Source of the DNA: Dyadobacter fanqingshengii
Lineage (GTDB): Bacteria; Bacteroidota; Bacteroidia; Cytophagales; Spirosomataceae
DNA length: 64,000 nucleotides
Direction: 5' to 3'
Assembly (NCBI RefSeq): GCF_023822005.2
Contig: NZ_CP098806.1
Coordinates: forward strand, 3,658,001-3,722,000
A model generated the notes under the pieces. That model saw nothing but the letters and a program-made list of their open reading frames with translations. It had not been told where the DNA came from and did no database searches. Positions within the stretch are counted from its first letter, which is position 1. Every line of letters starts with the position of its first letter. This document shows positions 12,399-38,796 of this stretch, piece after piece. The position numbers and the translations under genes were made by a program.

Positions 12399-13418
12399 AT
12401 GGAAATACAATTCGACATTGAGTTTAAGGAAAGTGCGCCAAAATACATGCAGATAATCAAGTCGCTTTTGCAGGCGATTAGTAAGGGGAAACTGAAACGC
12501 GGCGATAAAATTCCTTCTATCAATCAGTTAAGTGAAGAATATTTACTTTCCCGGGACACTGTTGAAAAGGCCTACAAGCATTTGATCAAGGATGGCGTAT
12601 TGATATCTGTTCGGGGCAAAGGTTACTTTATCAACCGCGTCGACATTGAAACATCGGTGCGCATTCTGTTGGTTTTCAACAAAATAAGTAATTATAAAAA
12701 GCAGATATATAATGCTTTCGTGGAGAATGTTGGCCGCAATGTAAATGTTGATCTGCACATTCATCATTCCAATGCCAATATTTTCAAGAATTTGATCAAA
12801 AACAGCCTGGGGGAATACGATTATTATGTGATCATGCCGCACTTCTACGAAAAAGCGGAAGAGGCAATTGAAACATTGAAAATGATCCCGCCGGAGAAGC
12901 TGATTTTACTGGATAAGGACATTGAGCTGAACAGTAAAAAGCATTCATCCGTCTTCCAGAATTTCGAAAAAGACATTGTTTCTGCTCTAAATGAGGCAGT
13001 TGACCTGCTCAAAGTTTACAAAAAGCTGATCCTTATTTTCCCGACCATTATCCGCTATCCCAAAGAAATCATCAAGGGCTTCCGGATCTTTTGCATTCAA
13101 CATGAGTTCGAACACGAAATCATGTACGACTTTCACGAAAACAGCATCGCCGTGAAGGACACCGCTTATGTGGTGATCGAAGAAAATGATCTGGTGAATC
13201 TGATCAAAAAATGCCGCGAGCAGCAGCTGACGATTGGCAAAGACATTGGTATTATATCCTACAACGAAACGCCATTAAAGGAGATCCTGCTGGACGGCAT
13301 CACGACCATTTCCACGGATCACGAGCAAATGGGAAAGACGGCCGCGGAGTTGATAACGGAGAATAGAAGGGCTATTGTAAAGAATCCGTTTACGTTGATT
13401 AGGAGGAAATCATTATAA
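12399..13418 (+). CDS. GntR-family transcriptional regulator with sugar-binding-like C-terminal domain
   Basis: 339 residues. Residues 10-78 form a GntR winged helix (KRGDKIPSINQLSEEYLLSR, then VEKAYKHLIKDGVL and GKGYF). Residues about 88-335 have the alternating strand/helix pattern of a LacI/periplasmic-binding-protein effector domain (RILLVFNK, YYVIMPHF, GIISYNETPLKEILLDGITT). Such GntR-LacI hybrids, like AraR, usually sense sugars. Its target may be the rhamnose genes at 17.2-20.8 kb, but a different cassette lies between them, so this is only inference. A strong hairpin overlaps its stop codon region. Confidence 0.88.
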   Translation: MEIQFDIEFKESAPKYMQIIKSLLQAISKGKLKRGDKIPSINQLSEEYLLSRDTVEKAYKHLIKDGVLISVRGKGYFINRVDIETSVRILLVFNKISNYKKQIYNAFVENVGRNVNVDLHIHHSNANIFKNLIKNSLGEYDYYVIMPHFYEKAEEAIETLKMIPPEKLILLDKDIELNSKKHSSVFQNFEKDIVSALNEAVDLLKVYKKLILIFPTIIRYPKEIIKGFRIFCIQHEFEHEIMYDFHENSIAVKDTAYVVIEENDLVNLIKKCREQQLTIGKDIGIISYNETPLKEILLDGITTISTDHEQMGKTAAELITENRRAIVKNPFTLIRRKSL

Positions 13419-13469
13419 AAATAAACGCCCGAAAAAGCCAAGAACTTAACCTATTTCGGGCGTTTATTT
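13419..13469. terminator. Bidirectional stem-loop terminator
   Basis: A perfect 16-bp inverted repeat (13419-13434 with 13454-13469) with A-rich left and T-rich right ends starts immediately after the GntR stop codon. It can serve the GntR gene on plus and the cassette ending at 13590 on minus. Confidence 0.82.
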
Positions 13470-13589
13470 CTGTTATCCGTCGACAATAAGCGATATGGTC
13501 CGGCTTGGCCTAAATAGTAAAACTACTAACAAGCAAGCCTCTTAACCATAGCCATGTAAATGCGCGAGAAAAAGCATTTGTATTAATCC

Positions 13590-15665
13590 TTAATTGAGGC
13601 GCTTAAAACCTGAATGGCAGACTGGTCCCTCTAATAAATTTGTTATATCACGACCCTCATGCTCACACTCGGCAATCACTTTATAAACACCATCAAGTGA
13701 ATTGAAATATTGATCGATATACTCGTCTGTATGCTCTGTACAGGCGTAGCAATTAGTACTCGCTAAAAATCCTTTTTTAAGCATCTCCTGAGTTATAAAT
13801 GTTTTATATTCCAGAGCTGAACTACTGTTAAAAGAATAAGTACTCAATGCGGGAATACCTGAAACGCTAATTGCAAGCCTATGCTCATCTGCAAGCTGTT
13901 TCCAACCATCCTGCATCTTTTTTCCCTGAGCTGTAATAATTTCCCATGATCTCATCTTCTCCATAACTTCCAGCGTTTTCAAGGCCGCCGCGGGACCGAT
14001 TCTTTCTGTCCAGAAAGTGCTGCTAATAAAAGTTTTCTGAGCAGCTTCCATGACTTCCCTCCTGCCTACAACAGCAGTAAGCGCATACCCGTTTCCAATG
14101 GTCTTGCCATACATGGCTATGTCCGGCTCAACACCGAATTTCTGATAAATACCACCAAAAGTTTCTCTAAACCCGGACGTGCACTCATCAAACACCAGTA
14201 CTATTCCTCGGCTAGTGGCAAGATCCCGTACTTTTTGAAGAAAGTTATTTTCAGGTCCAAAGTTCCTTACCACTTCCATCTTGATCACACCAATTTCGTT
14301 GTTTTCAACAATATGTAGAAGCTCCTCAAAATTGTTGTACTGGAAAGGGAAAACCGTATCTTTTAAATTTTTAGGTACACCCGTAGGATCCAGCCCTGGT
14401 ATGAGGTGACCGGATAAACTGTCACTATCATTATGGTTCGCTGATAAATACCAGTCATGCCAACCATGATAGCCACAGATAGCAACTTTGTCCCTACCCG
14501 ATGCTGCTCTGGCAATTCTGATCGCTATGGAATTAGCTTCGCCACCGGTTCTTGCAAATCGCACCATACTTGCCCAAGGATTTAAATCCACAAGTTTTTC
14601 AGCCAAGTAAACCTCTTCCGGGCAGTTAAAAGTGCTCATGTTACCCGTTCGCACTACATTCATCACTACGGAATCAATCTCTTCGTTTCCATATCCCAAC
14701 GTATTCGTACCTATACCCATGATAGACATGTCGATATATTCCTTCCCATCCAGATCCCATACTTTGCAACCTTGTGCCTTTGAGTAATAAGATGGCCAGT
14801 TGTCTGGCAAGAACATTTCCGGGCGCTTGGAAAGCAACATTGTGCCCCCGGGTATCAGCGTTTTTGCTTTTTCATATAATTTTTGACCTGTGCCGTTGTT
14901 CATCTTATTCGCTTTTAGAGACTTTAAATAACCTTCGTTACGGATAATGTTGTCATTTATATCATTTAGACCGTTTTCAATAATGTAGTTTCCATATTCT
15001 ATCCAGGTTTTTGTTTTGCCTAAATCTTTTACAAGTTTTTCAATCAAAGTGAAATCACGAGGCTCATCAACAGTCATTCTTAGGCTGGAATAATCCTTTG
15101 ATGACAACAGATTTTTAGATGTAAATAGCTGCTGGCCATTATCATTTGAATTATTTCTTATAAATGACGTCACATGTTCCCGATCCGATGTCAATACTGC
15201 TTTATTCCAGGCCGTTTGAAGCGCATGAAAGCTGAATACTTCAACATCCTGGCCGTCTGGAAAACTCTCCACAATGACATTCGCGACATAGTCCACCTTA
15301 CTATCGATCATGAGGGTGATCACCTCATCTATCAGCTGCGGGTCTATAAGCGGACAGTCCGATGTTACTCTTACAACGTAATCGGGTAATTCATCCTTAA
15401 CTGATTGATAGAAGCGGTCGAGTACATCCTCTGTAGAACCTTGGTAAACGCCAACACCCGCAGCCACGGCAATTTTGATGATCTCTTCCACCTTATCCTC
15501 ATGTGTTGTTGCCACAATAACACCCTGAGCTATTTTAGAATTTTTGAGACGGTCTAAATGTATCGAAAGAAGCGTTTCGCCATTAATTTCTTTAAGTATC
15601 TTCTGAGGAAAGCGCGTGCTATTAACACGGGCCTGTGTTACTATAATTATTTTAGGTTTTACCAT
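13590..15665 (-). CDS. SpsF-like cytidylyltransferase fused to class III (GSA-like) aminotransferase
   Basis: 691 residues, two domains. Residues 1-245 are an SpsF/CMP-sugar-synthetase-like nucleotidyltransferase (IIIVTQARVNSTRFPQKIL, then RVTSDCPLIDP). Residues about 260-691 are a glutamate-1-semialdehyde-aminomutase-like PLP enzyme (ARTGGEANSIAIRIARAA; FDEC with D493; PLP-lysine K521 in YGKTIGNG). Both domains keep their key motifs, so the fusion is probably active. Proteins of this type occur in flagellin-glycan and surface-sugar gene clusters and may transaminate and nucleotide-activate an unusual sugar. The 7-base overlap with the aldo/keto reductase gene points to a single operon. The exact substrate is unknown. 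Confidence 0.85.
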   Translation of the reverse strand: MVKPKIIIVTQARVNSTRFPQKILKEINGETLLSIHLDRLKNSKIAQGVIVATTHEDKVEEIIKIAVAAGVGVYQGSTEDVLDRFYQSVKDELPDYVVRVTSDCPLIDPQLIDEVITLMIDSKVDYVANVIVESFPDGQDVEVFSFHALQTAWNKAVLTSDREHVTSFIRNNSNDNGQQLFTSKNLLSSKDYSSLRMTVDEPRDFTLIEKLVKDLGKTKTWIEYGNYIIENGLNDINDNIIRNEGYLKSLKANKMNNGTGQKLYEKAKTLIPGGTMLLSKRPEMFLPDNWPSYYSKAQGCKVWDLDGKEYIDMSIMGIGTNTLGYGNEEIDSVVMNVVRTGNMSTFNCPEEVYLAEKLVDLNPWASMVRFARTGGEANSIAIRIARAASGRDKVAICGYHGWHDWYLSANHNDSDSLSGHLIPGLDPTGVPKNLKDTVFPFQYNNFEELLHIVENNEIGVIKMEVVRNFGPENNFLQKVRDLATSRGIVLVFDECTSGFRETFGGIYQKFGVEPDIAMYGKTIGNGYALTAVVGRREVMEAAQKTFISSTFWTERIGPAAALKTLEVMEKMRSWEIITAQGKKMQDGWKQLADEHRLAISVSGIPALSTYSFNSSSALEYKTFITQEMLKKGFLASTNCYACTEHTDEYIDQYFNSLDGVYKVIAECEHEGRDITNLLEGPVCHSGFKRLN

Positions 15666-16516
15666 GTTGATGGATTTAATAAATTTAAGTCCTCAATGAG
15701 GATAGTGTCAATTGTCCTAAATACTTCTTGCTGTATAGTGATTTCCGACCATTTTAGATTTTGCTTCAACTGTGTGACTGAGTCCACACCTATGAGCACT
15801 CCGTCGATATAGTCTTTTTGCAGGACATATTGCAATGCAAGATGTCCTATGTCAAGTCTGTGCTCATCACAAAGTTGTTTTATTAAATTTAGAGGCTCTT
15901 TTAATGGCGATAACTTAACGGGTATTTTCTCATCATCCATAAAAATGAGTCCCTGCAGGAAAGCCGAGCGCGTATGAATTGTTTTTCCTCTGGACTTTAA
16001 TTCCAACACTGCTTCCGACCTCAAAACATGATTGTCTAGGATATTGAAAGGCAATTGTACCACATTTATGCGGTCATCCTGAGCTAGCTGTTCAAGTTCC
16101 TCATTAGTATAAACTGAGACACCTATGGTTGCCACATTGACGTCCTTATACTTACGGATAAAGAAATCCAGCGCATGCTTATTTTCAGCGTAATGCGAAA
16201 AGGAGTGAAACAAGATGGACGAGATTTTGTCGGACCTTAGCTTTTGTAAGCTGGATTCAAGAGATGAACCGCAATCAACCTGATTACTAAACTTTGTTAT
16301 GATATTGAAGTTTTTTCCAGGATTCTTGCCGAGATAATTGCCGATGACAAGTTCAGAATTCCCGTAACTGCTTGCTGTGTCAAGGGAAGTAACTCCATTC
16401 GTATATGCATGCTCAAGAATTGCAGACGATTGCTCCACCGTAACCTGCCCGGCTGAATTATTTACTCCATATGCAAGCCCAAACTGGACCGTACCGAGAA
16501 TTAACTTATTACTCAT
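15659..16516 (-). CDS. Aldo/keto reductase
   Basis: 285 residues, typical for a short AKR. The tetrad is visible as D46 and Y51 in SLDTASSYGNSE, K75 in IITKFS and H104 in ILFHSFSH. The start ILGTVQFGLAYGVNN matches AKRs found in nonulosonate and surface-glycan clusters. It probably reduces a keto-sugar intermediate with NADPH in the cytoplasm. The gene overlaps its upstream neighbour (GNAT) by 8 bases and its downstream neighbour by 7 bases, so the three are translationally linked. Confidence 0.88.
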   Translation of the reverse strand: MSNKLILGTVQFGLAYGVNNSAGQVTVEQSSAILEHAYTNGVTSLDTASSYGNSELVIGNYLGKNPGKNFNIITKFSNQVDCGSSLESSLQKLRSDKISSILFHSFSHYAENKHALDFFIRKYKDVNVATIGVSVYTNEELEQLAQDDRINVVQLPFNILDNHVLRSEAVLELKSRGKTIHTRSAFLQGLIFMDDEKIPVKLSPLKEPLNLIKQLCDEHRLDIGHLALQYVLQKDYIDGVLIGVDSVTQLKQNLKWSEITIQQEVFRTIDTILIEDLNLLNPSTW

Positions 16517-17021
16517 TTCGCAAGAACATCCTTAGTGTGTCAGTACTATACTTCTCATTTGAAACGAAATCCAGCTCTGTAAAATTTAGTTTCCTGTACA
16601 ATTTTACAGCTCCACTATTACTTTTCAAAACACCCAAAGTTATTCCTGACAGTCGGAGCTGCTTAAAACAGTAATCTATAACCAGACATGACGCTTCACG
16701 AGCAAAGCCCTTGCCCCAACTTTCCCGATCTCCGATCATGATGCCATACTCCCCTGTATTATTAAGCTCGTCTACGGGGCTTATCTTAATATTGCCAATG
16801 TGTTCGCCGGTCTGCTTTATAATTATAGCCCAGAAAAGTGTTTCTTCTCTTTCATGCTTATCAATATAATCTTGCAGCATTTCGTACGTGTAATTTCCCC
16901 CGGATGCTAGATATTTGTTTACCTCAGGGTCATTTAACCAGTTAACATACTTTTCGGACAAGTGTGTCGAAGTCAGCGGCTGCAGTACAAGCCTCTCCGA
17001 TTCTAAAATTGTAGCTTTCAT
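16509..17021 (-). CDS. GNAT-family N-acetyltransferase (RimJ/RimL-like)
   Basis: 170 residues from the ATG at 17021, which begins MKATILESERLVLQPL; the frame extends 13 codons further but without a better start. The acetyl-CoA loop is ESWGKGFAREA and the C-terminal strand is KLNFTELDF. This RimJ-like form is common in sugar-modification operons, where it acetylates an amino-sugar. It is the first gene of the three-gene minus-strand cassette. Acetylation of the amine installed by the fused aminotransferase is an inference from the context. Confidence 0.85.
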   Translation of the reverse strand: MKATILESERLVLQPLTSTHLSEKYVNWLNDPEVNKYLASGGNYTYEMLQDYIDKHEREETLFWAIIIKQTGEHIGNIKISPVDELNNTGEYGIMIGDRESWGKGFAREASCLVIDYCFKQLRLSGITLGVLKSNSGAVKLYRKLNFTELDFVSNEKYSTDTLRMFLRNE

Positions 17022-17174
17022 TGAATTATATTTATTTAATAATAAACTGTTGCTCAGCATCAGTAAGTGTGAGGTTATATTTAGCGCTGGAAAGTTACAG
17101 AATTTATGTGTTGTTTTCCTAGATGGTACGATCCCTGTTGAGTGAGATTCCCAACCACGTTCTCGGAAAAATCA

Positions 17175-17228
17175 TTATAAAAAAGCAATTGCCCCGGGCT
17201 TAGGCCCGGGGCAATTGCTTTTTTATAA
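17175..17228 (-). terminator. Perfect 25-bp hairpin terminator at the rhaI end
   Basis: The arms 17175-17199 and 17204-17228 pair perfectly over 25 bp around a 4-base loop; the core is GCCCCGGGC and the flank is A/T-rich on both sides. The right arm includes the rhaI stop codon (17223-17225). It can terminate rhaI on minus and would also block reading from plus. Confidence 0.88.
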
Positions 17229-18506
17229 TCCGGTGGCGACTGTTATTTTCCCTCGCTCATTCATCAACCCATTCCGAACTTTCAAATTCCTAAACAACCC
17301 AATTGGATCCAGTGAACCGCCGCTTAGTCGCATGGATTCGCGGACTAGCGGCCGCACATCGGTTCTGAATGCATTTTGAAGAATTTGCTGGGCTAGCACT
17401 ACGTCGTTTTGATTTCTGGCTTGTTCCAGTTTTTTGCGGTCAACGAGTAATGCTTGTGCGTAGGAGATTAATATTGCTTCCACCGATTGCAGTAAGTCTT
17501 CCAATGGATCTTTTACATTGTGGCTTGCATCGATCATCCAGGCGTAAGTGTCAGCCAGACGGTTTGCGCGTTTCATGCCTTCTACCAGTTCCACGAAAAT
17601 CAGGAAAAGCATATAAGGACGAATGCTGCCGACGGTTAAGTCGTCGTCGCCATATTTGGAATCGTTGAAATGGAAACCTGCCAAACGGCCCTCCATCATT
17701 AATGTCGCGACAATTTGTTCGATATTTGCATTTGGTAAATGATGGCCCAAATCCACCAGCACATCTGCCTTTGGCCCCAGTTTCTGACAGAAAAGCAATG
17801 AACTGCCCCAATCCTGGATTACGGTTGAATAAAAGTTCGGCTCGTATGCTTTATATTCCACATAAACTTTCCAATCAGCAGGCAATTCGGCGTATATTTC
17901 TTGTAACGATTCCAGCGTATTTTGAAATGCTTTTACAAAATTGGATTGCCCCGGAAAACACGATCCATCTGATAGCCAGATTGATAACGCTTTCGATCCC
18001 AGATCCTTACCATATTTTATCACTTCAATATTATGCTCAACAGCTTGTTTTCTAACCGCAGGATCAACGTGTGAAAGCGACCCAAATTTATACGAATGCT
18101 GCTGGTCCTTCTGGTCCTGAAATGTATTGGAATTAACCGCATCAAATTTCAAGTCCAATGAAGTTGCCAAACCGATAATCGATTCTGCCTGCTGTGGAAT
18201 GTCCCAGGGAATGTGCAGCGAAATGGATCCACTCGAACGGTTCAATGCATGCAAGAGTCCGACGTCCTCCACTTTTTCTTCCAAGGAACGCGGTTCGCCT
18301 CCTCCTGAAAATCTTCCAAAACGCGTCCCGCCCGTCCCCAAAGCCCAGCTCGGAATGGCAACCTGAAATGCTTCCAAAGCACTTATTACTTCGCTGGCAT
18401 TGATCCCCTGCTCGCCAAGCTGCTCTTTTAAAAAGTTGAGCTGGTTATTATGACGCGACATTATGCTGTCGTTATGCTGGTCAATCTGATATTGGTCGAT
18501 TTTCAT
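17223..18506 (-). CDS. rhaI: L-rhamnose isomerase (rhaI type)
   Basis: 427 residues, a TIM-barrel sugar isomerase of the Pseudomonas stutzeri-type L-rhamnose isomerase family, distinct from E. coli RhaA. Metal and substrate motifs are visible as VEYKAYEPNF (Glu), VDLGHHLPNANIEQ (Asp/His) and FHFNDSKYGDDD (His/Asp pair). It converts L-rhamnose to L-rhamnulose in the cytoplasm. It lies 122 bases downstream of the aldolase/dehydrogenase gene on the same strand, so a shared operon is likely. Neither a rhamnulokinase nor a rhamnose permease is adjacent. Confidence 0.93.
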   Translation of the reverse strand: MKIDQYQIDQHNDSIMSRHNNQLNFLKEQLGEQGINASEVISALEAFQVAIPSWALGTGGTRFGRFSGGGEPRSLEEKVEDVGLLHALNRSSGSISLHIPWDIPQQAESIIGLATSLDLKFDAVNSNTFQDQKDQQHSYKFGSLSHVDPAVRKQAVEHNIEVIKYGKDLGSKALSIWLSDGSCFPGQSNFVKAFQNTLESLQEIYAELPADWKVYVEYKAYEPNFYSTVIQDWGSSLLFCQKLGPKADVLVDLGHHLPNANIEQIVATLMMEGRLAGFHFNDSKYGDDDLTVGSIRPYMLFLIFVELVEGMKRANRLADTYAWMIDASHNVKDPLEDLLQSVEAILISYAQALLVDRKKLEQARNQNDVVLAQQILQNAFRTDVRPLVRESMRLSGGSLDPIGLFRNLKVRNGLMNERGKITVATGL

Positions 18507-31487: not shown

Positions 31488-32504
31488 ATGCTAGATTTGA
31501 CCGGTAAATCGATACTTATAACAGGAGGAACTGGTTCTTTAGGTAAAGCATTAACCGCAACGATTTTCGAAAGATGGCCTAATGTGAAAAGGCTTGTCAT
31601 CTTGTCCAGAGATGAACAAAAGCAATTTCAGATGGCGCAGGAATACACACCAAACAAATATCCCCAGATTCGTTTTTTTATTGGTGATGTGAGAGATGAG
31701 GAACGTTTACGGAGAGCTTTTAAAGGAATTGACTTTGTAATACATGCAGCAGCTATGAAGCATGTGCATATTGCTGAATACAACCCTACCGAATGTGTTA
31801 AGACCAATATCAATGGTGCTCAAAACGTCATCGCTGCGGCGCTGGATACGGAGGTAAGCCATGTGGTTGCGTTATCAACTGACAAAGCGGCGGCCCCGAT
31901 CAATTTATACGGCGCCACGAAGCTTACTTCGGATAAACTGTTTATCGCGGCCAATAATATCCGCGGACGCAATCCCATTAAGTTTTCAGTAGTTAGATAT
32001 GGAAATGTGATGGGCTCAAACGGATCGGTGATTCCTTTCTTTATTAATAAGAAAAAGGAAGGTGTGTTACCGATTACAGTGGAAAACATGACCCGCTTCA
32101 ACATCTCGCTTAAAGGCGGCGTGGACATGGTTTTGCATGCATTGGAGACAGCCTGGGGAGGAGAACTTTTCGTTCCGAAAATTCCATCCTATAAGATACT
32201 TGATATCGCAGAAGCGATCGGACCAGAGTGCGAGCACCGCGTCATTGGCATCCGTCCGGGAGAAAAGATTCACGAGGAAATGATCACTACATCCGACTCA
32301 TTCTTTACTTATGATCTGGGCAAATATTATGTTATAGTCCCTCAGACACCTGTTTGGAGCATTTCAAACTTCATTAGTCACTTCAATGCGACGAAAGTGC
32401 CGGACGGTTTCTCCTACAATTCCGGAGATAATACAGAATGGGAAACGGTTGAAAGTTTGCGGGCTTTGATCGTAGAGCACGTAGATCCCGACTTCACAGT
32501 TTAA
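31488..32504 (+). CDS. pseB: UDP-GlcNAc 4,6-dehydratase (inverting), PseB
   Basis: 338 residues, an SDR enzyme. The Rossmann motif is ITGGTGSLGKAL near residue 11, and the catalytic residues are D132, K133 and Y141 with K145 (STDKAAAPINLYGATK), which match the family numbering of FlaA1/PseB. It converts UDP-GlcNAc to UDP-4-keto-2,6-dideoxy-L-arabino-hexose, the first step to pseudaminic acid. The next gene starts 11 bases later. It is strongly distinguished from epimerases by the STDKA motif. Confidence 0.95.
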   Translation: MLDLTGKSILITGGTGSLGKALTATIFERWPNVKRLVILSRDEQKQFQMAQEYTPNKYPQIRFFIGDVRDEERLRRAFKGIDFVIHAAAMKHVHIAEYNPTECVKTNINGAQNVIAAALDTEVSHVVALSTDKAAAPINLYGATKLTSDKLFIAANNIRGRNPIKFSVVRYGNVMGSNGSVIPFFINKKKEGVLPITVENMTRFNISLKGGVDMVLHALETAWGGELFVPKIPSYKILDIAEAIGPECEHRVIGIRPGEKIHEEMITTSDSFFTYDLGKYYVIVPQTPVWSISNFISHFNATKVPDGFSYNSGDNTEWETVESLRALIVEHVDPDFTV

Positions 32505-32515
32505 TTCTTCTTTGA

Positions 32516-33694
32516 ATGATCCCATACGGAAAGCAAAATATAACCGAGGAAGACATTAGAGTCGTTACCGAGGTGTTAAAGTCAGATTATCTTACCCAAG
32601 GTCCCAATATTCAGCAATTTGAAACTGCTTTTGCTGAATATGTAGGGTCGAAATACGCGGTTGCGGTGGCAAATGGCACCGCTGCGTTGCATTTGTGTAC
32701 ACTTGCATTAGGTGTAAATCCTGGTGATAAAGTGATAACCACCTCGATTACTTTCGCAGCCTCGGCGAACTGCATCCGCTATTGCGGAGGGGAGGTTGTA
32801 TTTGCAGATATCGACCCTTCAAGCTATCTGATTGATATACATTCAGTACGAAACTTGCTGGAAAACGCCGCCCAAGGGACATATAAAGGCATTGTTCCGG
32901 TTGATTTTGCAGGCAGCGCCGTGGATCTGGAAGCTTTCAAAGAGTTGGCGGATGAATTTGGCCTATGGATCATTGAAGACGCTTGTCATGCGCCGGGTGG
33001 TTTTTTTACAGACTCTGCTGGAAATCATCAGCTATGCGGAAACAGCAACTTTGCGGATCTCGCCATTTTTAGCTTTCATCCGGTCAAGCATATTGCTTGC
33101 GGAGAAGGCGGAATGATCACGACCAATAACTTGGAATTGTATCAGAAATTGCTTGCGCTCAGAACACATGGGATTGTAAAATCGAATGATCTGTATATAA
33201 ACAGCATTGAGCTGGCCGGTGGAGCGGAACAGTATCCGGGCTGGTACATGGAAATGCAAACCTTGGGTTACAATTACCGCTTGACGGATTTTCAGGCTGC
33301 GTTGGGCGTAAGCCAGCTTAAAAGGGCCGACGCCGGCCTTGAAAAACGCAGGGCAATTGCTGCAACTTACCAGGCTGCGTTTTCTAACAAAGCATTCATA
33401 TATGGACAAAGCGGCGTGGTAACAGGCCATGCGTATCACCTGTATATTATTGAGGTTGAGGATCGGTTAGGTTTATACAATTACCTGCGGGGAAAAGAGA
33501 TTTTTGCGCAAATACACTATATACCTTGCCATTTAATGCCCTATTATCAAGGCTTGGGGTGGAAAATCGGTGATATGCCAAACGCCGAAGCGTACTATCG
33601 TGGATGTATCAGCCTGCCCATGTATCCCACGTTGACGGATGAAGAGCAGTCGTTTGTAATAGATGCTGTTAACGATTATTATAACAATGGGTAA
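32516..33694 (+). CDS. pseC: UDP-4-amino-4,6-dideoxy-N-acetyl-altrosamine transaminase, PseC
   Basis: 392 residues, DegT/DnrJ/EryC1 family. The PLP-lysine is K191 in FSFHPVKHIACGEGG, and the EDACHAPGG motif carries the cofactor Asp. The N-terminus IPYGKQNITEEDI matches PseC. It aminates the PseB product using glutamate. The stop codon is followed at once by the fragment of a lost pseF gene. Confidence 0.95.
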   Translation: MIPYGKQNITEEDIRVVTEVLKSDYLTQGPNIQQFETAFAEYVGSKYAVAVANGTAALHLCTLALGVNPGDKVITTSITFAASANCIRYCGGEVVFADIDPSSYLIDIHSVRNLLENAAQGTYKGIVPVDFAGSAVDLEAFKELADEFGLWIIEDACHAPGGFFTDSAGNHQLCGNSNFADLAIFSFHPVKHIACGEGGMITTNNLELYQKLLALRTHGIVKSNDLYINSIELAGGAEQYPGWYMEMQTLGYNYRLTDFQAALGVSQLKRADAGLEKRRAIAATYQAAFSNKAFIYGQSGVVTGHAYHLYIIEVEDRLGLYNYLRGKEIFAQIHYIPCHLMPYYQGLGWKIGDMPNAEAYYRGCISLPMYPTLTDEEQSFVIDAVNDYYNNG

Positions 33695-33807
33695 CTGCTT
33701 GGCAATCATACATTGATAATCCTGTCGAAGAACAAGTGCAGGATATAGACACACCATCGGATTGGTTGATGGCGGAAATGAAATACAAATTGCTTTATGA
33801 TAAGTAA
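33685..33807 (+). pseudogene. pseF: 3' remnant of pseF (CMP-pseudaminic acid synthetase)
   Basis: A frame of about 40 codons, without its own start, runs from just before the pseC stop codon to a TAA at 33805-33807. Codons 33739-33765 read QDIDTPSDW, followed by AEMKYKLLYDK to the stop: this is the characteristic C-terminus of PseF/CMP-NeuAc-synthetase proteins (QDIDTxxDWxxAExKYK). The stop overlaps the pseG ATG (33797) by 11 bases, the kind of junction expected between intact pseF and pseG. So almost the whole gene was deleted between the pseC end and this point. The upstream end of the homology is uncertain. Confidence 0.85.
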
Positions 33808-35248
33808 ATTATATATCAGAACGGATGGAAGTTCCAGCATTGGCCTTGGTCATCTCGTCAGGTGTATAGCTTTGTCAAAAATGCTGGATGACAGCTTTAA
33901 CATTCATTTTGCATGCAAACAAATTCCCGATAGCATTGCTGTCGAAATCCGGGATGCAGGCTTTGCCCTTCTTATCCTTCAAAACGACAATGAGCTATTG
34001 TCTGTCTTAACGCCCGAAGACATGGTTGTAGTCGACAGTTATGAGCTTGAAAGTGATTACCAGCAAGCAATTAAAAAAATTGGGTGCCAGTTAATTTGTA
34101 TTGACGATCTGCACGAGAAACCTTCTTATGCAGATCTGATTTTAAATCATACACCCTGCGTATCCCCACAGGAATATAACGCACAACCATACACGCAATT
34201 TGCACTTGGCCCCTCCTATGCATTAATCCGTCCCGCATTTTTAGAACTTGCCGTAAAAGAGCGTGTGCAAGTTGATAGTGCTTCCGTTCTGATTTGTTTC
34301 GGAGGTTCGGATAGCAGAAATCTGACAAAAGTAGCATTAAGTGTAGTGTCGACTTTCAGCCAGTTTAAAAACATAGCAATAGTAACCGGGACTGCATATA
34401 GTCATCAACAGTCGTTAGATGAAATATTGGAACAGCAGGATAACGTTGTTCATTATCATAATATCAGCGCGGAGGAAATGGCGCAACGAATGTCAGAGGC
34501 TGATCTCTGCATTGTTCCAGCAAGTGGGATTTTGACAGAAGCACTTACTTCAGGCGCAAAGATTATTTCGGGAATGTATGTTGATAATCAGATATTTGTC
34601 TTTGAGAATTACAAGAGGGCAAATGCTTTTATCAGTGCTGAAAATTTTTCAGAAGAAAATCTTTTCCTCGCGGTTAAGAATTACTTTTCACAAGAACATG
34701 TAAAGGGTGCCCGGCTTGTTGATGGACAGTCTGGCGAGCGCATTAACAAACTTTTTCAGCAGCTGGTTAAAGAACGTGATTTTCATCTCCGCAGGGTTAC
34801 CATTGAAGACGCGGAATTGACATACCAATGGGCATCCGATAAGAAGGTCCGCCAATATTCCCTTAGCCAAAGTACAATACAATTTGACGACCACCTTGCC
34901 TGGCTTTCCAGAAAATGGACAGATCCGAAATGTATATTTTATATTGCATTGTTTTGCGGAAAACCTGTTGGCTCCATTCGATTTGATTTGAATGATGGTG
35001 ATGCGGTTATAAGTTATCTGCTGGATCCAGATTATCATGGCCAGGGCTTGGGGGCTGTGATGTTAAAAAAGGGCATTCTGTCCCTCGGTGAAGCTTCCGA
35101 AGACAAAATAGAACGGCTTTCCGGAATTGTAATGCCAGATAACATTTCATCTTGCAGAACATTTGAACGATTTGGATTTGAGAGAGAGCATGATGGTGAG
35201 AATTATAAATACACTATGAACATTCATGATGAAAATAGGAACATTTGA
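33797..35248 (+). CDS. PseG-PseH fusion: UDP-sugar hydrolase and N-acetyltransferase
   Basis: 483 residues, two activities. Residues 1-325 are PseG, a GT-B-fold hydrolase that removes UDP from UDP-2,4-diacetamido-2,4,6-trideoxy-altrose (RTDGSSSIGLGHLVRC with the catalytic His at residue 19). Residues about 330-483 are a GNAT acetyltransferase like PseH (RRVTIEDAELTYQWASDKK, acetyl-CoA loop YHGQGLGAVML near residue 414, CRTFERFGFERE). PseH normally acts before PseG, so the fusion may channel the intermediate. It overlaps pseI by 23 bases. Gene order is pseB-C-(F)-G/H-I. Confidence 0.93.
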   Translation: MISKLYIRTDGSSSIGLGHLVRCIALSKMLDDSFNIHFACKQIPDSIAVEIRDAGFALLILQNDNELLSVLTPEDMVVVDSYELESDYQQAIKKIGCQLICIDDLHEKPSYADLILNHTPCVSPQEYNAQPYTQFALGPSYALIRPAFLELAVKERVQVDSASVLICFGGSDSRNLTKVALSVVSTFSQFKNIAIVTGTAYSHQQSLDEILEQQDNVVHYHNISAEEMAQRMSEADLCIVPASGILTEALTSGAKIISGMYVDNQIFVFENYKRANAFISAENFSEENLFLAVKNYFSQEHVKGARLVDGQSGERINKLFQQLVKERDFHLRRVTIEDAELTYQWASDKKVRQYSLSQSTIQFDDHLAWLSRKWTDPKCIFYIALFCGKPVGSIRFDLNDGDAVISYLLDPDYHGQGLGAVMLKKGILSLGEASEDKIERLSGIVMPDNISSCRTFERFGFEREHDGENYKYTMNIHDENRNI

Positions 35249-36266
35249 TATAAATAAAAACAGTCCTGTATTTATCATCGCAGAACTGTCGGCTAACCAT
35301 AATGGCAGCCTTGAAACAGCCATAAAAACGATCAGGGCGGCTAAACGAGCTGGTGCCGATTGCATAAAATTGCAAACCTACACTGCAGAAACGATTACCA
35401 TTGATTCACGCCTGGATGATTTTCGCATTGGCGGAACAATTTGGGATGGTCAGTATCTTTTTGATTTGTATAAGGAGGCATATACCCCGTGGGAATGGCA
35501 TGCGGAATTGTTTCGCGTGGCAAAAGAAGAAGGATTGGTTTGTTTTTCTTCTCCTTTCGACCCTACTGCCGTTGAATTTCTTGAAGAACTGAATGTGCCT
35601 GCATATAAGATCGCTTCGTTCGAAATCACCGATATTCCTTTAATTGAATTAGTCGCATCCAAGGGTAAGCCAGTCATTATTTCCACTGGTATAGCCACAG
35701 AAGAAGATATTCGGCTCGCTCTGGACGCTTGTGCAAGACAGGGTAACGATCAAATTGCGTTACTGAAATGCACATCGAGCTATCCTGCTCCGATTGCTGA
35801 GGCAAATATGACCATGATTAAAGACTTTGCAGAACGGTTCAATGTTATAAGCGGCCTTTCTGACCACACCATCGGTAACACTGTTCCTGTTGTAGCTACC
35901 GTTCTTGGCGCAAAAATCATTGAAAAGCATTTTATTTTAGACAGAGCCATCGGAGGCCCGGACGCTTCATTTTCCATGAACGAATCGGAATTCTCGGAAA
36001 TGGTGAAATCCGTAAGAGAGGCGGAGCAAGCGATCGGTGTAGTAGACTATAAATTGACGGAAAAGCAGTCAAAAGGAAAGGACTTTTCTCGATCTTTATA
36101 TGTGGTTGAGGACATTGCGGCCGGAGAGCTCATAACAGAATCGAATGTCCGCTCGATCCGTCCGGGTTTTGGTCTACATCCAAGACATTTGAAAGACATC
36201 CTCGGAAAGCCTGTTAACGCGGACCTGAAAAAAGGATCCCGGATGACATTGGATAAAATCGCCTAG
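35226..36266 (+). CDS. pseI: Pseudaminic acid synthase, PseI
   Basis: 346 residues. The NeuB TIM barrel (AELSANHNGSLETAI near residue 19, SSPFDPTAVEFLE, STGIATEEDI, LKCTSSYPAP, LSDHTIG, EKHFILDR) covers 1-270 and a C-terminal SAF/antifreeze-like domain (SLYVVEDIAAGELIT, IRPGFGLHPRHL) covers about 285-346. It condenses the PseG product with phosphoenolpyruvate to pseudaminic acid. The ATG at 35226 lies within the preceding gene. The TSSYPA form is seen in PseI rather than NeuB. Confidence 0.94.
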   Translation: MMKIGTFDINKNSPVFIIAELSANHNGSLETAIKTIRAAKRAGADCIKLQTYTAETITIDSRLDDFRIGGTIWDGQYLFDLYKEAYTPWEWHAELFRVAKEEGLVCFSSPFDPTAVEFLEELNVPAYKIASFEITDIPLIELVASKGKPVIISTGIATEEDIRLALDACARQGNDQIALLKCTSSYPAPIAEANMTMIKDFAERFNVISGLSDHTIGNTVPVVATVLGAKIIEKHFILDRAIGGPDASFSMNESEFSEMVKSVREAEQAIGVVDYKLTEKQSKGKDFSRSLYVVEDIAAGELITESNVRSIRPGFGLHPRHLKDILGKPVNADLKKGSRMTLDKIA

Positions 36267-36400: not shown

Positions 36401-37729
36401 TTGAGCTACCTGAATAGCAAGCATACCTTGAAACATAGGATTGGCAGTATAAAAAAGCATCCGCTTGTTAAAAATAGTATATTGTATGTTATAACAGATG
36501 CTGTTAACAAAGCAGTTCCGTTTTTACTTCTTCCGTTACTTACACATTATTTACTTCCAGCCGATTACGGAATTGTTGCCAACTATAATGTTTATATCAA
36601 TTTCCTGGTCATATTTATTGGGATCAGTTCTCAAAGCATTATTTCAGTCAATTTCTATAAATTGGATAAGGCAGAGATTGGCAAATATATATTTAACATA
36701 TTCTTTGTAATTTCCATAACAATTACGACTTGCGGGCTGGTCATTTTTTTATTCCAGAAGCAAATAGAAGACTTTCTGTCTGTTGGCCAAATCTTTGTCG
36801 TGAGTGGGTTGGCAATCGGCCTTTCTCAGGTGCTAAGCTCGATAAGCCTAATCCTTTGGAGATTAGAAGAACGTCCATTGGCTTTTGGTGGTTACCAGAT
36901 TTCCCAAACAATCTGTGATGTCACTATATCATTGATTTTGATCACGATGTTTGACATGGGATGGCGAGGAAGACTGATTGGCATTGGCACCAGTTCTATC
37001 ATATATGGATCCATCAGCATCTTTTTATTATGGAAGCGCGGCTATTTAAGCGTCTATTATAATAAATTGTACATCAAGGAGACTCTGAGATTTTGCCTCC
37101 CGATGGTTCCTCATGCATTGAGCGTTTGGGCCAGGGCTGGATCTGATCGGCTCATCGTATCAAATCTGGCGGGTGTTTCCGCAAGTGGTATCTATGCGGC
37201 TGGATTCCAATTTGGTCTGCTCATTTCATTTCTGACGCTTGCTTTCAACAATGCTTACGCTCCGTTTATCTATAAAAGTTTATCATTAACGGATGAGCGT
37301 ATCTTAGAGTCAAAAAAGCAAAAGCTGGTCAAATTCACCTATTTATACATTGCGGCGTTGCTTTTGTTAACATTCCTTGCATCCATTGCGTCCAATTTTG
37401 CAATAGACAATTTTTTGTCAGCAAAATATGCAGAGGCGAAAATGTATGTGGGCTGGGCGTTATTTTCACAAGCTTTTCAAGGGGTATATTTAATGTTCGC
37501 TACTTACATTTTTTACGTAAAGAGATCCGCATCGCTAGCCATTGTTACTTTTATTTGCTCCGCACTACAAGTTGCATCATCATATTATTTGGTGAGTAGC
37601 ATTGGGCCGCTAGGAGCGGCATATTCAAATTTCACAATCAGTCTGCTCAACTGTATTGTTGTCATGATTCTTAGTGCAAGAGTCTATCCAATGCCTTGGT
37701 TAAATTTTCGCGTTCTCCTGGCCAGATAG
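36401..37729 (+). CDS. Wzx-like oligosaccharide flippase
   Basis: 442 residues with about 12 hydrophobic helices, in the polysaccharide-export (MVF/MATE-like) fold (KAVPFLLLPLLTHYLLPADYG at the N-terminus, then ARAGSDRLIVSNLAGVSASG). It flips undecaprenyl-linked repeat units across the inner membrane. The start is a TTG at 36401; no ATG is available before the first helix. Its position among Wzy, Wzz and glycosyltransferases supports the call. Confidence 0.9.
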   Translation: MSYLNSKHTLKHRIGSIKKHPLVKNSILYVITDAVNKAVPFLLLPLLTHYLLPADYGIVANYNVYINFLVIFIGISSQSIISVNFYKLDKAEIGKYIFNIFFVISITITTCGLVIFLFQKQIEDFLSVGQIFVVSGLAIGLSQVLSSISLILWRLEERPLAFGGYQISQTICDVTISLILITMFDMGWRGRLIGIGTSSIIYGSISIFLLWKRGYLSVYYNKLYIKETLRFCLPMVPHALSVWARAGSDRLIVSNLAGVSASGIYAAGFQFGLLISFLTLAFNNAYAPFIYKSLSLTDERILESKKQKLVKFTYLYIAALLLLTFLASIASNFAIDNFLSAKYAEAKMYVGWALFSQAFQGVYLMFATYIFYVKRSASLAIVTFICSALQVASSYYLVSSIGPLGAAYSNFTISLLNCIVVMILSARVYPMPWLNFRVLLAR

Positions 37730-37752
37730 CATTACCCAATTCACCATACGCT

Positions 37753-38796
37753 ATGATTAACGACATAAAAAGGCAAATTGTAATACAGGCCGAAAAAACG
37801 AAAATCTTTCGGAAAATATATTGCGCAGTTAAAAGATATAAATCCGCTGACTTTCCTGTGCAGGTCAAGTCCCGGCAATCGGTCGACATTTTCGATCTTC
37901 AAAAATTGAGTGCACCACTCCCTTATCATCCTCATTTTTACTTTTATGACTGTAACTATTACGGAATACTTTTTCAGCTCTTGAAATATAGTAAAGTTGA
38001 CATTAACGACAACGGTCTTCCACTCCACGAAATTTACCTGGAACATGGGATCATAATCGGAAATCTCGTCCGTGCAGATTCAGTTAACCTTGCAAGGAAA
38101 ACATTGACTTTCAGCAAATACAGGTCACAGTTCATCTTAGAAAAAACAGGTAAGACGCCTAGTTTGATTGGCCCTTACATTCACTATGCCCAGGGAATTC
38201 TCAATCAGGAAGCTTTGTCGAAAACCAAAACAAGCTTAGGAAGGGTTCTTTTGGTTTTTCCAACCCATTCTATTGGGGCAGTTGCTGCGGAATATGATAA
38301 GAACCAGTTCTGCCTGGAAATCGAAAAACGAAAAGCCGGGTATGATACGGTACTGGTGTGTATGTACTGGAAAGATGCCCAAAACGGCGACCATGATTAT
38401 TATCAAAAAATGGGTTATAAGCTTACCACCGCGGGTCACAGAGACGACCTGTATTTTTTAGATAGGTTGAAATCAATCATCTTGCTTGCTGATATGGTTA
38501 TTTCAAACAGCACGGGAACCCATATCGGATACAGTCTTTTTCTGGGTAAACCGAATTACCTTTTCAAGCAGGATGTGGCATTGGTATCCAAATCTCAAAG
38601 TGGGGACATTTTATTAAGAAATCATTATCAAACGGAGGTAACGAACACAAAGAGTAAAGATAATCAACTGCTTTACGACACCTTTGATGTATTTGAGGAA
38701 AAGATCACTTCGGACCAGTATGAATTGGCAAAACACATTTGGGGTTTTGATTGCGTTAGAACACCTGAGGAATTAAAATCAATCTTACTTAATTAG
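37753..38796 (+). CDS. Unrecognised polysaccharide-biosynthesis protein, GT-like
   Basis: 347 residues from the ATG at 37753; the frame is open 19 codons further, overlapping wzx. No membrane helix and no family that I can name with certainty. Two halves with alternating strands and helices suggest a GT-B or polysaccharide-pyruvyl-transferase-like fold. Conserved-looking stretches are FYDCNYYGILFQLL, LEHGIIIGNLVR, VLLVFPTHSIG and MVISNSTGTHIGYSLFLGKP, the last like a nucleotide-sugar-binding loop. By position it probably adds or modifies a sugar of the repeat unit. Confidence 0.6.
   Translation: MINDIKRQIVIQAEKTKIFRKIYCAVKRYKSADFPVQVKSRQSVDIFDLQKLSAPLPYHPHFYFYDCNYYGILFQLLKYSKVDINDNGLPLHEIYLEHGIIIGNLVRADSVNLARKTLTFSKYRSQFILEKTGKTPSLIGPYIHYAQGILNQEALSKTKTSLGRVLLVFPTHSIGAVAAEYDKNQFCLEIEKRKAGYDTVLVCMYWKDAQNGDHDYYQKMGYKLTTAGHRDDLYFLDRLKSIILLADMVISNSTGTHIGYSLFLGKPNYLFKQDVALVSKSQSGDILLRNHYQTEVTNTKSKDNQLLYDTFDVFEEKITSDQYELAKHIWGFDCVRTPEELKSILLN

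Follow-up and report, generated by a model that had tools for sequence, protein, structure and literature searches.

A Dyadobacter pseudaminic acid operon that has lost pseF, and an SpsF-type cytidylyltransferase encoded outside it as the probable replacement

Synthesis of the CMP-activated form (CMP-Pse) of pseudaminic acid (Pse), a sialic-acid-like sugar, is generally taken to end with PseF, and the pse operon described here raises the question of what becomes of that step when the remaining genes stand intact around a missing pseF. The operon lies in a window of 64,000 nucleotides from Dyadobacter fanqingshengii (contig NZ_CP098806.1, positions 3,658,001 to 3,722,000; all coordinates below are those of this window) and comprises the following features:

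31488 to 32504, plus strand: pseB, intact (NCBIfam TIGR03589, 494.8 bits, cut-off 407.75)
32516 to 33694, plus strand: pseC, intact, its stop overlapping the surviving pseF start (TIGR03588, 451.5 bits, cut-off 423.5)
33687 to 33716, plus strand: what is left of the pseF 5' end, namely eight codons, then a ninth codon and a TGA (alignment with seven intact pseF genes)
33727 to 33807, plus strand: what is left of the pseF 3' end, its final 26 codons with the TAA, and an 11-base overlap with the start of pseGH (TIGR03584 and tblastn, see below)
33797 to 35248, plus strand: pseG-pseH fusion (pseGH), intact, 483 aa (TIGR03590 PseG over cut-off at 207.5 bits; PseH model at 37.3 bits, short of its cut-off of 93.1; GNAT matches in Pfam)
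35226 to 36266, plus strand: pseI, intact (TIGR03586, 507.6 bits, cut-off 340.25)

Translated, 33685-33807 reads QWVTAWQSYIDNPVEEQVQDIDTPSDWLMAEMKYKLLYDK followed by a stop, and the sole NCBIfam model that it matches is the PseF family TIGR03584 at profile positions 201-221 of 222 (E 1e-4, 22.0 bits against a whole-protein cut-off of 205.7, thus a remnant and not a full PseF), with no Pfam family matched at E <= 1. Tblastn against eight relative loci recovers the last 26-27 residues of the remnant in seven of them, with identities of 74-92% and E-values from 5e-10 to 3e-13; the eighth, from D. tibetensis, gives a chance-level match only (E 9.9). The TAA and the pseGH ATG share an 11-base overlap, which the alignment shows in all seven relatives too, and this bears out the preliminary description of this stretch as the last codons of a PseF-like gene with a stop overlapping pseG.

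Alignment with these relatives, seven Dyadobacter that keep a 690-nt pseF and share the C-terminus of the remnant, corrects that description in two respects: the deletion starts within pseF and not at the pseC stop codon, and the terminal codons are not all that is left. The pseF ATG at 33687 survives, overlapping the pseC stop as in the seven relatives, and with it the first eight codons in all (MGNCLAII, where the relatives have MxKxLAII); one H codon comes next, and then a TGA at 33714-33716 that ends the frame at codon 10. Altogether 121 nt of pseF are left, where all seven relatives have 690 nt, and the net loss of 569 nt is no multiple of three, so that the frame was shifted as well. The breakpoint can be placed only within a few bases, and by eye both flanks carry similar letters around AATCAT. 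As both ends align with the seven intact genes between pseC and pseGH, the remnant descends from pseF at the syntenic place; a chance match is rejected by the same alignment and by the E-values above.

These data show that the pse operon of this Dyadobacter once held a pseF and lost it through a deletion inside the gene, 569 nt net, while pseC, the beginning of pseGH and the remaining pse genes were left untouched. The spared last 81 nt, in which pseGH starts, may have kept pseGH translated. This 3' scar differs from the corresponding D. psychrophilus sequence at six of its 81 nt, three of them specific to this genome against the four nearest relatives, and by such divergence it looks young. 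The operon is otherwise like the classical one of the seven PseF-bearing Dyadobacter, with the same genes, the same order, the same pseC/pseF and pseF/pseGH overlaps and the same flanking wza, wzc and wzx-type genes; the window alone has pseF cut to 121 nt and, inserted upstream, an SpsF block unique in the genus. Adjoining the wzx-type gene, a 366-aa open reading frame (37696-38796) with no NCBIfam or Pfam match at E <= 0.01 is likewise kept in all seven.

The SpsF block lies about 18 kb upstream of the scar, outside the pse operon (it ends at 17060, and pseB begins at 31488), and consists of the following:

13412 to 17250, no strand assigned: insert that carries the SpsF block, flanked by a GntR-type regulator gene and by an L-rhamnose isomerase gene, the latter identified by eye (blastn of the flanks, gene order of L101)
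13590 to 15665, minus strand: SpsF-type cytidylyltransferase (residues ~1-250) fused to a class-III aminotransferase (~256-691), the proposed PseF stand-in (CTP_transf_3, 103.2 bits; Aminotran_3, 134.3 bits)
15659 to 16516, minus strand: aldo/keto reductase (AKR) of the block (Pfam Aldo_ket_red, 108.1 bits)
16509 to 17060, minus strand: GNAT acetyltransferase of the block (Acetyltransf_3, 91.6 bits; on the PseH model 47.5 bits, where the cut-off is 93.1)

The SpsF match to PF02348 spans residues 8-215 of the fusion and far exceeds the family cut-off of 22.6 bits, and the nearest solved chain is 6oew_A, annotated 'Cytidylyltransferase' (E 2.1e-31). AKR, SpsF and aminotransferase follow one another in this order on one strand (13590-16516), with the GNAT gene upstream as in two clusters from other genomes (L200 and L203, below). 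The same aligned flanks are present without the insert in D. psychrophilus (G087) and in G160, separated by ~217 bp and ~131 bp, respectively (blastn). A full-length relative of the SpsF::aminotransferase fusion was found in none of the other genomes among the 48 of the genus, the next best match being to the aminotransferase half in G181 (43%), and because the block is absent from this remaining sample, its insertion here is favoured over its loss in D. psychrophilus and G160. The insert brings no pseB, pseC, pseG or pseI of its own, and the block adjoins genes of rhamnose catabolism (named by eye). Judged from sequence, the fusion may reflect a recent joining of two neighbouring genes.

Two further proteins resemble its halves. 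A D. chenhuakuii aminotransferase, a protein without genome context, is 96% identical over 63% of the window fusion (P0015, 437 aa) and, by eye, begins at a methionine internal to the 691-aa fusion; a stand-alone 253-aa SpsF (P0242) is 90% identical to the window SpsF. No PseF labelled D. chenhuakuii occurs among the best 120 of 7998 scored, which says little since most entries carry no such label.

Across the genus, PseG scores over its cut-off in nine of 48 genomes, and PseF does so in seven of those nine, directly upstream of pseGH, leaving the present genome and D. tibetensis (G142) with PseG and without PseF. In a sample of 200 genomes of the family, PseG exceeds its cut-off in 52 and PseF in 67; tables compared by hand give PseF in 49 of the 52 PseG genomes, a match by genome and not by adjacency (18 genomes have PseF without PseG over cut-off), the three exceptions being this genome, D. 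tibetensis and G003. The ten pse-bearing genomes considered together (nine Dyadobacter and G003) divide accordingly: the seven with PseF match the SpsF domain weakly, at 31-35 bits, like the KdsB of this genome (31.7), and the three without PseF have an SpsF-type protein, namely this genome, G003 (257.4 bits) and D. tibetensis, whose protein is far more divergent (33.7 bits on the SpsF domain, although 76.5 bits on CTP_transf_3). The G003 cluster reads PseB-PseC-AKR-SpsF-aminotransferase-methyltransferase-PseGH-PseI and that of D. tibetensis PseB-PseC-AKR-SDR-(NeuB-like::SpsF)-PseGH-PseI, with AKR and SDR assigned by similarity and by eye. D. tibetensis thus resembles the window in genus, in lacking PseF and in carrying an SpsF-type domain with an AKR, there inside the cluster; it differs in that its SpsF domain is fused to a NeuB-like domain and placed elsewhere in the SpsF tree, that its cluster has no aminotransferase of the window's kind, and that its pse proteins are 34-80% identical to those of the window. 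This fusion of a NeuB-like and an SpsF-type half, 590-594 aa long, recurs in L052 (6652-8424, D. tibetensis), L138 (from 6211) and L155 (from 5271), Pfam assignments being for L052 only; it stands beside a separate PseI in L052 and L155, and the three SpsF halves group together in the tree with support 100.

We then compared 80 PseG loci from genome contigs, drawn by PseGH alignment and blind to cytidylyltransferases. PseF-class genes are present at 55 and SpsF-class genes at 22, with no locus holding both, and the three with neither lie on contigs that end within 1.7 kb upstream of PseG. The counts are to be read with the composition of the set, which is rich in Bacteroidota, includes mutually related loci (L177 and L180 share one contig) and is classed by custom profiles built from 30 PseF seeds and five SpsF seeds, the latter including the sequences of the window and of D. 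tibetensis, which is thus both seed and counted locus; L139 is counted as PseF although it scores 191.9 bits on the curated model, under the cut-off of 205.7. AKR and aminotransferase accompany SpsF at 11 of the 22 loci, AKR alone at four and neither at seven. In one locus of a Tannerella metagenome-assembled genome (L143:4834-7705) the order is AKR-PseF-aminotransferase (GSAM), a PseF of 260.7 bits occupying the slot where relatives have SpsF. The two classes can thus trade places within the same block, and AKR and aminotransferase do not strictly require SpsF as their partner; we read L143 as a natural swap in the opposite sense.

The block itself recurs beyond the genus. In a sample of 390 genomes of the order, 12, this one included, match the aminotransferase at E <= 1e-120, and all 11 others have PseC and an SpsF-type protein near it, while no open frame in the surroundings of those 11 blocks has PseF as its best class. 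PseI is present in ten of these clusters (the L206 contig is only 10.8 kb long) and PseB in nine, and PseG is recognised in four (G090, L205, L206, L207), also when searched with a profile of eight PseG sequences. The other seven (L198-L204) combine PseB or PseC, the SpsF block and PseI, with no recognisable PseG in the 20 kb read, from which it follows that the block does not always serve the standard Pse route; these clusters either follow a non-standard route to the acid or contain a PseG that escapes recognition. The gene order of L200 and L203, PseB-PseC-GNAT-AKR-SpsF-aminotransferase, contains that of the window block, and L206 and L207 carry an SpsF::aminotransferase fusion. In a quick tree of 34 rows with SH-aLRT support only (the duplicate row L052, from the same genome as L128, being left out), the window SpsF falls in a set of nine rows (98) within a set of 20 (99) that comprises 19 labelled rows from AKR-SpsF-aminotransferase clusters and the window's own.

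We consider it probable, though well short of certain, that the CMP-activation step has passed to the SpsF-type cytidylyltransferase, a distantly related, non-orthologous enzyme encoded outside the pse operon. PseB, PseC, PseGH and PseI would produce Pse or a Pse-like acid for SpsF to couple to CMP, and the reductase, aminotransferase and GNAT protein of the block might alter the sugar, their family names together suggesting an added acylamino group. The preliminary description had left the matter as an either/or between another cytidylyltransferase and a sugar that is no longer made. The first branch is now the better supported, because the window holds an SpsF block of the kind that occupies the place of PseF in other pse clusters; it falls short of proof, and the recognition of PseG in only four of the 11 block clusters lowers our confidence in it. 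It is also possible, if doubtful, that the exchange of enzymes led to a different sugar, a chemotype switch: the three partner enzymes of the block would add and acylate a further amino group, SpsF would charge mainly that product, and loss of PseF would have been favoured as PseF would feed unmodified Pse into the same surface glycan.

That the pathway is instead dead or dying seems to us rather unlikely. On this reading the loss of pseF would be recent, CMP-Pse would not be produced, decay would have yet to reach the rest of the pse operon, and the SpsF block would act on another sugar. The little-changed scar fits such a course, as do the position of the block outside the operon beside rhamnose catabolism genes, the seven block clusters without recognised PseG, and a pseB omega of 0.040 here (vs G160), somewhat above the 0.010 of D. 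psychrophilus. Yet pseB, pseC, pseGH and pseI are all intact, with pairwise omega of 0.036-0.12 against D. psychrophilus, a point of limited weight because the scar looks young: intact genes do not prove use, and pairwise dN/dS cannot separate use from recent disuse after so recent a deletion. Furthermore, the genome carries a single PseG locus, and the insert brings no pseB, pseC, pseG or pseI.

A different enzyme acting in trans, either KdsB or the NeuA-like protein at 5.19 Mb, appears improbable. A search of the genome for another pseF, neuA or CTP_transf_3 gene, as had been proposed, found no second PseF, and we reject that possibility: no protein reaches the PseF cut-off of 205.7, and of the four proteins that pass the PF02348 cut-off one is the SpsF fusion, another the NeuA-like protein, and the remaining two, identified by eye, are KdsB and a MobA-like protein. 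On the PseF model no protein of the genome scores higher than the NeuA-like one, whose 141.4 bits are still under the PseF cut-off, and which belongs to a second nonulosonic acid locus (L103:8793-11658, C1 ~5.19 Mb) in which NeuB-type, NeuC and NeuA-like genes stand in a row, NeuC scoring 370.3 bits, over cut-off, and the NeuB-type protein 285.4 bits, under its cut-off of 399.65. Similar NeuA-like proteins are however common in the genus alongside PseF (144.5 bits on the PseF model in D. psychrophilus), so that this one is no special partner of pseF loss. An assembly artefact hiding an intact pseF is highly improbable: although the deletion is seen in a single assembly of the strain, that genome is in two contigs and 99.73% complete, and each of the two surviving ends of pseF carries own-specific substitutions.

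If replacement by SpsF is the correct reading, this genome seems to show a change of hands under way, with a pseF scar beside a newly arrived SpsF copy. Pathway scoring by PseF alone would call such strains broken, and the SpsF block could help to locate possible producers of modified Pse-type acids. Our literature search found no report of Dyadobacter pseudaminic acid, of a missing pseF or of this case.

Published systems offer three points of comparison. In Bacillus subtilis, SpsF is a putative cytidylyltransferase of a nonulosonic acid pathway, and without spsF legionaminic acid still forms in the mother cell but is missing from the spore surface, although complementation of the mutant failed (PMC7439481); the likeness to the window lies in name and putative role, and the B. 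subtilis acid is legionaminic. In a Pse-type cluster of Vibrio B9-25K2, an SpsF-like domain has been suggested to replace a missing NeuA homologue (PMC7371886), there fused to the AKR as a bifunctional protein, and not to the aminotransferase as in the window.

The third is Tannerella forsythia ATCC 43037, with genes designated pseB (Tanf_01185), pseC (01190), pseF (01200), pseH (01225), pseG (01235) and pseI (01240) beside the 445-aa GtfS (PMC6120980), which is Tanf_01245 (PMC6120980, PMC6388019), and with pathway enzymes that are reported to have been produced recombinantly and characterised (PMC6388019). In the locus of the same strain (L179), PseC is followed by an AKR, a 255-aa SpsF-type ORF and an aminotransferase, and PseG and PseI by a 445-aa ORF. 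By gene order, with tags counted in steps of five, Tanf_01200 ('pseF') maps to the SpsF-type ORF, which scores 91.8 bits on CTP_transf_3 and 23.4 bits on the PseF model. Between pseC and pseG the count works out, eight tags to eight genes, provided that only one of two overlapping ORFs is counted, with the caveat that pseH (01225) would then be a 538-aa ORF that has a NIF/HAD-type and no GNAT match in Pfam, a GNAT ORF sitting two genes before it. Besides the GNAT protein and this NIF/HAD-type protein of 538 aa, the cluster (L179:5058-7947) encodes a phosphopantetheine-binding protein of 72 aa. Transfer of glyceryl groups to carrier proteins is a role of FkbH-type proteins, so these genes could be the source of the glyceroyl group, the origin of which is called unresolved in PMC6388019. 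Like the window, T. forsythia combines an AKR, an SpsF-type protein and an aminotransferase (39, 48 and 66% identical, respectively, to their window counterparts); unlike in the window, the block stands inside the Pse cluster, after PseC, and SpsF and aminotransferase are separate genes.
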